From Actinokineospora enzanensis DSM 44649 (GTDB lineage: Bacteria > Actinomycetota > Actinomycetes > Mycobacteriales > Pseudonocardiaceae), in the NCBI RefSeq assembly GCF_000374445.1, contig NZ_KB894424.1, positions 1 to 64,000 of the forward strand: a stretch of DNA of 64,000 nt, written 5' to 3'. Made by a program: the position numbers and the translations under genes. A model generated the notes under the pieces. The model was not told the DNA's origin. It ran no database searches and saw only the letters and a list, made by a program, of their open reading frames with translations. Numbering within the stretch: the first letter of the stretch is position 1; every line of letters begins with the position of its first letter. This document shows, piece after piece, positions 24,106 through 27,264 of the stretch.

Positions 24106-24453
24106 GTGGACGGCATGGGCGCCACTGACATGCTCGGCGGGTCCGAGGACCTCCCGCGCCCCGCACCCGCCGCCGAGCGCAAGGACCGCTTCCACGAGGA
24201 CCTGATCGGCCTGGACCCGGACGACCCGGAGGCCAGGGCGTTCGCCGCGCACCTGGACCGGGTCGAGCAGGTGCGCCCCAACTACACCGTCGAGGGCTAC
24301 CTCGGCGGGGTCAGCGACTTCGCCGACTCGGCCAACCGGCTCGGCGGCCACCACCGGCTCACCGCGGGCATACTCGCGACGCTCATCCTGTTGGGCGTGG
24401 TGGTGGCCGCGTGGGACGCCCTGGTCTTCATCATGGGCGTGCTGTTCGGCTGA
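24106..24453 (+). CDS. Hypothetical protein with one C-terminal membrane segment
   Basis: 115 residues. The first 80 are charged and soluble (ERKDRFHEDLIGLDPDDPEARAFAAHLDRVEQVRPNYTVEGYL). One hydrophobic helix follows (LTAGILATLILLGVVVAAWDALVFIMGVLF) at the C-terminus, giving a tail-anchored layout. It is not recognised. It lies between hisS and msrB and is probably co-transcribed. GTG at 24106 or ATG at 24115 may start it. Confidence 0.65.
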   Translation: MDGMGATDMLGGSEDLPRPAPAAERKDRFHEDLIGLDPDDPEARAFAAHLDRVEQVRPNYTVEGYLGGVSDFADSANRLGGHHRLTAGILATLILLGVVVAAWDALVFIMGVLFG

Positions 24454-24481
24454 GGCCGGAGCTTGAGGAGAGTAGACGCGA

Positions 24482-24934
24482 GTGGCTATGGAACCGGTTG
24501 TGGGCGCGACGCCGCGGGTGGTCAGGTCGGAGCAGGAGTGGCGGGCCCAGCTGGACCCGCGCGAGTACGCGGTGCTGCGCGAGGCGGGCACCGAACCGGC
24601 GTGGACCGGCGAGTACACCGAGACGAAGACCGTCGGGGTGTACCGGTGCCGGGCGTGCGGGGCGGAGCTGTTCCGCAGCGACACGAAGTTCGAGTCGCAC
24701 TGCGGCTGGCCGTCGTTCTTCTCGCCGCTGGCGGGCGAGAGCATCGTGCTGCGCGAGGACCGCGCGCACGGCATGGTCCGCACCGAGGTGCTGTGCGCGG
24801 GCTGCCACAGCCACCTTGGCCACGTGTTCGAGGGCGAGGGCTACCCGACGCCGACCGACCAGCGCTACTGCATCAACTCGATCTCGCTGACGCTGGTCCC
24901 GGACGGCACCTCAAGTCCGGGTCAAGAAGCCTAA
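24482..24934 (+). CDS. msrB: Peptide-methionine (R)-S-oxide reductase MsrB
   Basis: A 150-residue MsrB that reduces methionine-R-sulfoxide in proteins. The structural zinc cysteines are YRCRAC (C56, C59) and VLCAGCHSH (C105, C108). CGWPSFF is the substrate pocket. The catalytic cysteine is C130 in RYCINSISL. Complete for the family. It starts 28 nt after the tail-anchored protein. Confidence 0.93.
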   Translation: MAMEPVVGATPRVVRSEQEWRAQLDPREYAVLREAGTEPAWTGEYTETKTVGVYRCRACGAELFRSDTKFESHCGWPSFFSPLAGESIVLREDRAHGMVRTEVLCAGCHSHLGHVFEGEGYPTPTDQRYCINSISLTLVPDGTSSPGQEA

Positions 24935-25081: not shown

Positions 25082-26065
25082 ATGGACGAGCCTTGGGGTG
25101 TTTCCGGACCGGATTTCCTGCGTTCGTATCTGGTGTGTCTGGCCTTCGCGGTACTGGTCGCCGGGGCGGTGCGGATCATGGCGCGCTCCGGCGCGGCGGG
25201 CCGCGCGAGTGTGCCCGACCGGCTGACCGTGGAGGACCTGGCCCATCTGGCGGGCGGCGCCCGGCGCGTCGTCGAGGTCGCCGTGGCCAGGCTGCTGGAC
25301 CAGGGGCGGCTGCGGGCGAGTCGGGAGGGTCGCGTCCGGGCGGTCGAGGGGTCCGCGCCGGGGGCGAGCGAGCTCGACGAGGCCGTGCTCGACGAGGTCC
25401 GGCCCACCGGGCAGCGTTCGGTGGCGTTGTTGGTCGACCGGCTCGCCCAGCGGCCCGTGGTCACCTCGATCACGGCGCGGCTGGTCGGGAAGGGGTTGCT
25501 GGTCGACCGACGGGTCTCGCGCGCGCGGCTCTCGGCGCTCCCGCTCGTCCTGTTGTTCCTCGTCGGGCTGGTGCGATGGATCTCCGTACCGCCCGCGCAC
25601 GAGGTGGGGTGGCTGCCGGTCGCCATGGTGGTGACGCTCGGCTTGGCGGTGGCGCTGTTCCGCCGCCCGGTGCCCGAGCTGACCTACCTGGGTGCCCGGC
25701 GGCTGGCCGAGGCCCGGAACGCGGGCAGGCAGTCGGTGGGGCTCGATCCCGCGCTCGTCGACCCGGCGCTCGTGCGGGGTGTGCCGGGGCAGGTGGCCCT
25801 GGGTGGGCTGGTCAAGTTCCCGGACGCCGAGGTGGCTTCGGCGTTCCGGGTGGTCCGGCCATGTGCGCCGCAGTACTCGCGCAGGCGTCGTTACTCGCGT
25901 GTGGGCAGTGGCGGCAGTGCGGGGGTCGCGGCGGGGTATGTCGGGTGCGGCAGTGGTAGTTCCGGTAGCGGCTGCGGGGGAGGCAGCGGCTGCGGAGGGG
26001 GAAGTGGTTGCGGTGGCGGTAGCGGCTGCGGGGGAGGCGGCGGCTGCGGCGGCGGAGGCGGGTGA
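25082..26065 (+). CDS. Membrane protein with a (CGGGSG)n six-cysteine tail
   Basis: 327 residues. The N-terminal part resembles the TIGR04222-type membrane-protein family (assignment from memory): a TM helix at about 15-33, a folded cytosolic region with LTVEDLAHLAGGARRVVEVAVARLLDQGRL, then two TM helices (LSALPLVLLFLVGLV and LPVAMVVTLGLAVALF). A second region (ELTYLGARRLAEARN...) leads to a basic stretch. The last 40 residues are almost only Gly, Ser and six Cys, five of them at exact 6-residue spacing (C-G-G-G-S/G-G). The ATG at 25082 is chosen; an upstream frame lacks conservation. It is followed by a DUF692 iron oxidase, a family that modifies cysteines in peptides, so the tail may be a substrate. 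Confidence 0.82.
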   Translation: MDEPWGVSGPDFLRSYLVCLAFAVLVAGAVRIMARSGAAGRASVPDRLTVEDLAHLAGGARRVVEVAVARLLDQGRLRASREGRVRAVEGSAPGASELDEAVLDEVRPTGQRSVALLVDRLAQRPVVTSITARLVGKGLLVDRRVSRARLSALPLVLLFLVGLVRWISVPPAHEVGWLPVAMVVTLGLAVALFRRPVPELTYLGARRLAEARNAGRQSVGLDPALVDPALVRGVPGQVALGGLVKFPDAEVASAFRVVRPCAPQYSRRRRYSRVGSGGSAGVAAGYVGCGSGSSGSGCGGGSGCGGGSGCGGGSGCGGGGGCGGGGG

Positions 26066-26137
26066 CCGTTCCGTCACGCTCCGAGGGCATGCCGGGGGGT
26101 ATGCCCTCGGAGCCGCGCGCCGGGGGAGGATGACGGC

Positions 26138-26938
26138 ATGGGTGAGCTGGGTGTCGGCATCGGCTGGCGGTCCGAGATAGACCTGACCGTGGAGCGGTTG
26201 CCGGGAGTGGACTTCGTCGAGGTGGTCGCGGAGAACCTGCACGACGACCACCTGCCGGAGTCGCTGCGGATCCTGCGCGAGCGCGGGCTGCCGGTGCTGC
26301 CGCACGCGGTGTCGCTGTCGCTGGGCGGCGCCGACCCGGTGGAGACCGAGCGGGTGGAGCACCTGGCGGCGGTGGCCGAACTGGTGGACGCGCCGCTGGT
26401 GAGCGACCACATCTGTTTCGTGCGCGCGGGCGGGCTGGACTCCGGGCACCTGATGCCGGTGCCGCGCACCCGGGCCGCGCTGGACGTGCTGGTGGCGAAT
26501 GTCCACACGGCGCAGTCCATCCTGGGCGTGCCGTTGGCGTTGGAGAACATCGCCGCGTTGATCCGGTGGCCGGAGGCCGAGCTGACCGAGGCCGAGTTCC
26601 TGACCGAGCTGGTGGATCGGACGGACTGCCTGCTGTTGATCGATGTGGCCAATATGTGGGCCAACGCGCGCAACCTCGGCGAGGACCCGATCTCGCTGTT
26701 GGACGGCATCCCGCTGGAGCGGATCGCCTACGTGCACGTGGCGGGCGGCGTACTGGTCGACGGCGTCTACCACGACACGCACGCGCACCCGGTGCCCGCG
26801 GAGGTGCTGGACCTGTTGGCGGAGCTGTGTTCCCGGGTCGACCCGCCGGGCGTGCTGCTCGAACGCGACGACCGCTACCCGGCGGACTCGGTGCTGGACG
26901 CGGAGCTGGCCGCGATCCGCGCGGTGGTGACCCGGTGA
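26138..26938 (+). CDS. DUF692 multinuclear non-haem iron oxidase (MNIO, UPF0276)
   Basis: A 266-residue TIM-barrel protein of the DUF692 family, whose studied members (such as MbnB) use a cluster of iron ions and oxygen to modify residues, often cysteine, in ribosomal peptides. The metal-ligand set is intact: H56 ([11 protein letters not shown]), D90-H91 (SDHICF), E136-N137 (LENIAAL), D169 ([11 protein letters not shown]), H200 (YVHVAGG), D213/H215/H217 (HDTHAHPVP) and E242 (LLERDDRYP). It lies 72 nt after the Cys-tail gene and overlaps the partner gene by 4 nt. Confidence 0.92.
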
Positions 26939-27264
26939 GCCGGGCGGAGTTGGCCGCGGCGCAGGCGGAGCTGCTGCGCGCGGTGCTGGCGGGTGGACCG
27001 GTGCCCGCCGGGTTCGACGTGGACGCGGTGCGGGTCGAGGCGTCGTCGTTGTTGGCGAAACGGCGGCGGATCGTGGCCCAGCTGGGTCCGGAGGTGGCCG
27101 CGGAGCTGGGGGACCGCTTCGGGCCGTTGTTCGACGAGTACGCCGACGGCAACCCGCGGGCGGCGGGCTCCCGGTTCCGTGCGGACGCGGAGTCGTTCGC
27201 CCGCTGGCTGCGCGAGCGCGGCGAACTGGCGCCTGAGCCGCGTCGGCGCTGGTGGCGGCGGTGA
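26935..27264 (+). CDS. Partner protein of the MNIO enzyme
   Basis: 109 residues, mostly helical ([25 protein letters not shown]..., [60 protein letters not shown]). The GTG start overlaps the MNIO stop (GTGA), so translation is coupled. It resembles the C-terminal extension seen on Streptomyces UPF0276 proteins such as SCO6045 (from memory); here it is a separate gene. MNIO enzymes usually need such a partner to bind the peptide substrate. A terminator follows directly. Confidence 0.75.

Follow-up and report, generated by a model that had tools for sequence, protein, structure and literature searches.

What does an iron enzyme of the DUF692 (MNIO) family act upon when the gene before it encodes a membrane protein with a cysteine-studded Gly/Ser tail, and on which side of the membrane would such a tail lie? 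The question is raised by a locus in the window analysed here, the first 64,000 nucleotides of contig NZ_KB894424.1 of Actinokineospora enzanensis DSM 44649, in which three same-strand genes stand in a row at 25082-27264, with frames and coordinates that hold on translation (Table 1). An earlier note on this DNA had taken them for a DUF692 set whose substrate is the tail of a surface membrane protein, a proposal that is strengthened below by the linkage, the iron site and the partner type, but not in its surface placement. TIGR04222 proteins have been named putative MNIO substrates with PME-type 2 partners by Antoine et al. 2025 (PMC12452194), and the substrate proposal is thus already in print; what we add is a measured association of tail and enzyme, a predicted cytosolic topology, a link to DUF2207 proteins and a Streptomyces-like exception.

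Table 1. Features of the gene set, in window positions
Feature	Coordinates	Strand	Description or evidence
TIGR04222 membrane protein, 327 aa, putative MNIO substrate	ATG 25082..26065 stop	+	3 predicted TM, predicted cytosolic loop domain, Gly/Ser/Cys tail
Cys tail, last 40 residues of the membrane protein	25943..26062	+	six Cys in Gly/Ser, five Cys 6 apart
RNA hairpin, 16 bp, between membrane-protein stop and MNIO start	26078..26113	+	folding energy
DUF692/MNIO enzyme, 266 aa, intact	26138..26938	+	PF05114, 277 bits
MNIO partner, 109 aa, divergent DUF2063 / PME-type 2	GTG 26935..27264	+	GTG start overlaps MNIO stop

A separate precursor within the gene set can be set aside, since gaps of 147 and 72 bases and one overlap leave no same-strand room between the genes. 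The 75-nt stretch 26063-26137 folds with a minimum free energy of -44.1 kcal/mol (z = -2.8 against shuffles), and its hairpin is a possible expression-balancing element; it is not generally conserved, because most gaps in related loci are too short (40 nt or less in 54 of the 69 measured). Elsewhere in the 8.1-Mb genome (87 contigs) there are one further MNIO and one further TIGR04222 protein, on contigs other than that of the window; this TIGR04222 copy is also Cys-tailed and shares a contig with neither MNIO. The nearest relatives of the enzyme that we found belong to Actinokineospora (best, 88% identity).

The enzyme lies well within its family, scoring over the PF05114 gathering cut-off of 25 bits, and its best NCBIfam match is NF050167 (MNIO_BufB), at 200.6 bits and so below the equivalog cut-off of 310. 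The TglH ligands of Fe1-Fe3, namely H71, H107, E151, D184, N187, H216, D229, H231 and E258 (PMC10880893), have their counterparts in H56, H91, E136, D169, N172, H200, D213, H215 and E242 of the window enzyme, and the nine positions are identical in all 36 enzymes aligned, which come from the window and from 35 of the 80 related loci described below. The enzyme, called intact in the earlier note, keeps its iron site. Asn73 of TglH, proposed to orient the Cys (PMC10880893), has no aligned residue in the window enzyme, and carbon excision of the TglH type would accordingly not be expected here.

The partner is recognised mainly through its relatives and its position. The window protein itself has no NCBIfam match and no Pfam match over cut-off, PF09836 (DUF2063) included, and a sequence search for a solved relative returned none that convinces (best E 0.68); PF09836 matches 8 of 45 partner homologues at E <=0.1 (best 5.7e-7), the window protein not among them. 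The AF2 model has four helices (pLDDT 91.6), and a Foldseek search of 350,542 chains puts 7dz9_C first (chain C, 180 aa, of MbnABC, another MNIO complex), a weak match at prob 0.84 and E 0.31; NGO1945 and TglI are not among the 16 Foldseek matches listed. In being encoded directly after the MNIO and lacking a DUF2063 signature, the protein fits PME-type 2. A partner profile, run on 296 genomes of the phylum with no more than 15 candidates scored in each, so that a missing match carries little weight, matched 16; the one match per genome adjoins an MNIO in 16/16, 9 to 250 bases downstream. The PF09836 matches of the homologues and the structural match to MbnABC, both weak for the window protein itself, agree with the view of the earlier note that an MNIO-type partner is coupled to the enzyme. 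In 10 of the 16 genomes, all in a genus (g21) that we call Streptomyces-like from its gene content, the match lies in the same frame as the MNIO; there the partner is present as the C-terminal domain of the enzyme protein, so that the fusion which the earlier note ascribed to Streptomyces, as opposed to the separate partner here, is real in Streptomyces-like genomes.

The tail itself is as had been described: it takes up the final 40 residues, which consist of Gly/Ser and six Cys, with the first two Cys 9 residues apart and each of the four later intervals exactly 6. Its repeat units differ at third codon positions, except for one Ser/Gly change, and all six Cys codons are TGC. We defined a Cys-GS tail as at least 3 Cys in a 40-residue window of at least 60% G/S/C within the last 110 residues, and found it in 98 of the 119 TIGR04222-type genes of the window and the 80 related loci but in none of the 908 other genes called there, on which ground a chance tail was rejected. 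In composition the 98 tails are 55% G, 24% S and 17% C. Exact 6-residue spacing is peculiar to the window species; across the 97 related tails the spacing runs from 3 to 21 (mode 6), while the number of Cys is 3 to 10, mostly 3 to 6, and such a steady count with varying spacing speaks for a flexible tail with several sites over a folded metal site. The residue after a tail Cys is Gly at 341 of 448 sites, and the residue before it is Ser or Gly at 430. MNIO-PME1 pairs make 5-thiooxazoles on EGKCG repeats, with copper binding reported (PMC13097082), and the resemblance of the Cys-Gly sites to those repeats is suggestive only. The N-terminus of the membrane protein is acidic and, judged by charge only, not signal-peptide-like.

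The earlier note had staked its reading on whether DUF692 genes and Cys tails are linked beyond this locus, and the linkage recurs widely. We compared 80 related MNIO loci (82 found, 80 kept), chosen by similarity to the window enzyme and hence not a random sample of MNIOs; 5 of them start at a contig edge and were left out of the tail count. Within up to 6 kb on each side, a tail with at least 3 Cys was found by script in 67 of the 75 loci with upstream sequence, a count that rises to 71 after reading four missed ORFs (L008, L033, L063, L081). The remaining misses comprise two loci with two-Cys tails (L042, L076), one with short Cys-poor tails (L046) and one that lacks a TIGR04222 neighbour (L059), and two to four TIGR04222 copies occur in 32/75. 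A partner follows the MNIO in 76/80 loci by phmmer on ORFs and in 78/80 once gene calling adds L066 and L074; L055 ends near a contig edge, and in L078 none was found.

A wider sample of 196 genomes of the class allowed the association to be measured away from the window enzyme. PF05114 was detected in 44 of them and TIGR04222 in 74 at E <=0.001, of which 57 pass the cut-off. Once sub-threshold matches and the second fragments of split ones had been removed, these 57 genomes supplied 72 TIGR04222 rows, among which ORFs of low-scoring hits (e.g. G162, G055) may be read in the wrong frame. Genes were counted as adjacent if they share a contig and start no more than 6 kb apart; on this basis, the 30 proteins with a Cys-GS tail divide into 25 beside an MNIO, 4 with an MNIO elsewhere in the genome and 1 without; the 7 whose GS tail has fewer Cys divide into 0, 2 and 5, and the 35 without a GS tail into 13, 9 and 13. 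For the sole Cys-tailed case without an MNIO (G067), the contig breaks off a few hundred bases away, in the direction in which the MNIO would be expected. Cys-GS tails occur in 27/39 genomes with an MNIO against 1/18 without (Fisher p 6.8e-6), and Cys-tailed proteins in 15/15 genera with MNIO and TIGR04222 against 1/9 without MNIO (Fisher p 1.2e-5), with relatedness not removed from either test. MNIO presence switches just 3 times over a quickly built tree of the 72 proteins. In a supported-pair test, whose 4 pairs cannot reach significance, tail and MNIO adjacency agree in a mean of 3.0 pairs (median p 0.25) and disagree in a mean of 0.0, with one opposing pair in a few of the pairings; for MNIO presence in the genome the same underpowered test gave 0.5/4 (median p 1). 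Inspection by eye of the 22 most frequent clusters of neighbours, the majority of them without library comparison, brought up no recognisable copper gene.

The exceptions are concentrated, and the evidence runs against MNIO-Cys-tail pairing as a universal rule. Genomes with both families and no Cys-GS tail number 12/39, ten of them in the Streptomyces-like genus and two in genus g35 (G034, G160); G034 has CGG-type repeats that fall short of our definition of a tail. The Streptomyces-like genomes hold 11 tailless TIGR04222 copies beside an MNIO, with CxxxC within or at the end of TM1 in 11/11 of those listed; in three genomes of this genus (G035, G125, G195) a Cys-tailed copy directly follows the MNIO, and in two others (G152, G161) the locus has both kinds. 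Several of the loci inspected also show a PTH2-domain-type and a DUF4142-type protein nearby (one of each tested). In 5/44 MNIO genomes (G016, G018, G066, G096, G105), no TIGR04222 protein passes the cut-off. Where the neighbouring Cys tail is missing, the enzyme must either act on something else or be a relic. The published survey has a similar spread: its TIGR04222 family has >3,500 members below 90% identity and makes up 40% of >1,000 Cys-containing, signal-less proteins encoded before MNIO genes, more than a quarter of TIGR04222 proteins have no C-proximal Cys, 490 of 1,372 TIGR04222-bearing genomes have no MNIO gene, and subsets are called putative substrates (PMC12452194).

The scaffold that carries the tail has relatives of its own. 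The window protein scores 115 bits against TIGR04222 (near_uncomplex), over the curated cut-off of 43, and its AF2 model has a pLDDT of 80.6 with a low-confidence tail; Foldseek returned 23 matches, none useful as a solved relative (best E 2.0), and in a profile search for such a relative the Gly/Ser tail accounts for eight matches, mostly to linkers, beside one MarR-type protein at E 0.098. By profile comparison, the TIGR04222 scaffold and the C-terminal half of DUF2207 (YciQ-like) membrane proteins are homologous: hhalign aligns the two at 97.8% (E 1e-12), PF20990 matches 17/71 TIGR04222 family members at E <=0.1 (best 2.5e-5), and TIGR04222 matches 3/4 DUF2207 C-terminal halves tested, below its cut-off. 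DUF2207 proteins share with the window protein this half and a Gly-rich tail, and differ in a large N-terminal domain and in a tail that ends in Trp without Cys. Among 15 DUF2207 loci examined, 2 were truncated and 1 had no Gly tail; the 12/12 complete Gly-tailed cases have Gly runs, then Trp, and no Cys, which suggests that the Gly tail may predate its cysteines.

On which side of the membrane the tail lies can be approached through the charges flanking the three hydrophobic segments (TM1-3). In the 154 of 196 homologues that could be scored (42 could not), with stretches of unequal length and duplicates included, mean K+R is low ahead of TM1 (0.21) and in the TM2-TM3 loop (0.77), and high in the 20 residues that follow TM1 (3.3), the 20 that lead into TM2 (4.0) and the 30 beyond TM3 (5.9); a first topology count, with the same unequal flanks and duplicate proteins, gave 154/154. 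Length-matched tests point the same way: the TM2-TM3 hairpin of 135 distinct cores reads C-in in 109, against in 8 and tied in 18, and TM1 (n=90) reads N-out in 84, against in 4 and tied in 2. The window gene entered these counts from a called start 17 codons downstream of its ATG, while helix scoring used the full protein. On the biological hydrophobicity scale, the helix before the window tail scores 12.1 against 0.5 to 1.9 for TM1-3, far too polar to span a membrane; across the 154 proteins this helix has a median of 6.9, with the lowest at 0.57 to 1.55, and TM1-3 have medians of -0.7 to 1.6. The AF2 model has short broken helices before the tail, and neither hydropathy nor the model has a fourth TM. 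RRRRYSR stands shortly before the tail in the window protein; a basic linker was dropped as a general topology argument, given a mean K+R of 2.1 and D+E of 2.5. From this charge distribution the core should be N-out/C-in with the tail facing the cytosol, within reach of a cytosolic MNIO, and the surface protein of the earlier note is disfavoured.

With moderate confidence, we favour a TIGR04222-MNIO-PME2 operon in which the MNIO oxidises Cys of a cytosol-facing tail, making a metal-binding or redox patch. The gene set, its recurrent linkage, the intact iron site and the partner type are observed; that the tail is the substrate, which chemistry it undergoes and that it binds metal, we infer. 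The partner would bring enzyme and membrane protein together, and the iron enzyme would then oxidise Cys in the flexible Gly/Ser tail, the likeliest outcome being heterocycles such as the 5-thiooxazoles that related enzymes make; the tail, accessible to the cytosolic enzyme, would remain tethered at the inner face of the membrane and may serve there as a redox patch or a site for a soft metal, probably Cu(I). More tentatively, and as a possibility short of a probable one, we propose that a DUF2207-related protein gained Cys in a once-plain Gly tail and carries metal-binding heterocycles at the inner face as a membrane-tethered MNIO product that, unlike the Sec-exported bufferins, is never exported.

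The same enzyme and substrate could also be combined with an extracytoplasmic tail, modified before or during translocation and serving as a metal-binding tail at the surface. Antoine et al. place it outside or in the periplasm, from AlphaFold2 models and predicted topology (PMC12452194); the least polar pre-tail helices among the relatives are hydrophobic enough for a weak fourth TM, and the 8 opposing cores and 18 ties of the length-matched hairpin test leave this placement some room. Against it stand the low K+R before TM1 and in the TM2-TM3 loop beside 3.3 to 5.9 in the (longer) flanks of the other side, and, in the window protein, the RRRRYSR stretch and the lack of a fourth TM; we consider an outside tail unlikely.

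Nor do we think it likely, to a similar degree, that the tail works unmodified, through thiol metal-binding, disulphides or sticky low complexity, while the MNIO acts on another part of TIGR04222 proteins or on another protein. The CxxxC of the tailless Streptomyces-like copies beside MNIO would offer such a part, a Cys-tailed copy in this very genome is unlinked to MNIO, and some MNIO genomes have no TIGR04222 over the cut-off; yet among genomes without MNIO a Cys-GS tail occurs just once, near a contig end, as against 27/39 with it, and the Gly tail of the DUF2207 relatives is uniformly free of Cys. Drift of a GC-rich repeat without function would account for the repeat-like DNA and for Cys positions that drift between species; set against the 0/908 control genes, the mainly synonymous variation between units and the genus-level association with MNIO, it is very improbable. 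If the tail is modified, MNIO chemistry would reach beyond small exported peptides to include a multipass membrane protein, and if it is cytosolic, the function to expect would be that of a metal or redox patch on the membrane inside the cell instead of surface protection. A simple test set is at hand in the Cys-poor-tailed sister TIGR04222 proteins of enzyme-less genomes and in the Streptomyces-like genomes where the enzyme survives but no Cys tail adjoins it.

Among known systems, TglHI, which makes 3-thiaglutamate, shares with the window enzyme the alignment of all nine Fe ligands; TglI has an RRE domain, for which the 109-aa window partner seems too short, and the TglHI substrate is a 50-residue scaffold to which Cys is added, whereas the candidate here is the tail of a membrane protein (PMC10880893). 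Bufferins and captophorins have in common with this locus repeated Cys-Gly motifs, an MNIO with a DUF2063-type partner, and BufB as the best enzyme match, although the window enzyme scores below the cut-off of that maturase; their precursors are peptides with Sec signal peptides, in contrast to a 3-TM protein without such a start (PMC13097082). Closest are the published TIGR04222-MNIO-PME-type 2 clusters, with the same membrane and enzyme families, the usual gene order, a short partner (115 aa in the Saccharothrix protein of model A, 109 aa here) and the same substrate proposal (PMC12452194); literature matches, as listed by titles and abstract starts, included no experimental work on any TIGR04222 protein. 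PME-type 2 partners are reported in at least 10% of those TIGR04222 clusters, against nearly all of our 80 similarity-chosen loci, and the scaffold link is drawn here, the main text of that paper having 0 occurrences of DUF2207. The two accounts part over topology: tail and large domains lie in the periplasm in the published model (PMC12452194), whereas both are predicted to be cytosolic here.

The hairpin between the membrane-protein and MNIO (DUF692) genes may raise expression of the putative substrate above that of the enzyme in Actinokineospora enzanensis. Among the 80 related MNIO loci, which were chosen by similarity to the window's MNIO, 42 and 45 have upstream clusters that resemble, as matched by eye, relatives of the small protein and MsrB that precede the window's set.

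Features in the window and elsewhere in the same genome
Feature	Location	Remarks
Small protein and MsrB (methionine sulfoxide reductase)	window 24106-24934	5' of the MNIO set; one hydrophobic stretch in the small protein (by eye)
Hairpin	window 26078-26113	16-bp, strong, without T-run
RiPP-like cluster	L180:1-7713, contig C24	
Possible precursor	L180 cluster	50 aa, acidic, Cys-free
B12-binding radical SAM protein	L180 cluster	
LysE-like exporter	L180 cluster	by eye
Second MNIO	L180 cluster	
259-aa protein	L180 cluster	
Lantibiotic dehydratase match	L180 cluster	weak
M50-like protein	L180 cluster	weak likeness
Second Cys-tailed TIGR04222 protein	L181:6499-7404, contig C11	

The contig encoding the second Cys-tailed TIGR04222 protein carries neither of the genome's MNIOs, and this protein is possibly an MNIO substrate in trans. 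The second MNIO itself sits in a different, RiPP-like cluster.

In the Streptomyces-like genus g21, MNIO-partner fusions are retained at loci L161-L169 next to TIGR04222 proteins that lack the Cys-rich tail and share a conserved CxxxC within TM1 or at its end, with PTH2-type and DUF4142-type proteins near the fusions at several of these loci. Four g21 genomes also encode unlinked TIGR04222 paralogues (L129, L144, L148 and L151), whose terminal Gly-rich stretch holds only one Cys.

On the opposite strand, 3' of the MNIO set, genes of three kinds are found in L036, L040, L116 and further loci. With one member of each cluster checked against Pfam, the chlorite-dismutase-type (HemQ-like) cluster is present in 35 of the 80 loci, the amine-oxidase-type (HemY-like) cluster in 32 and the uroporphyrinogen decarboxylase cluster in 31. 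Such neighbours may reflect either a link to iron or haem or else old synteny; HemQ-like and HemY-like genes likewise follow a Streptomyces-like set.
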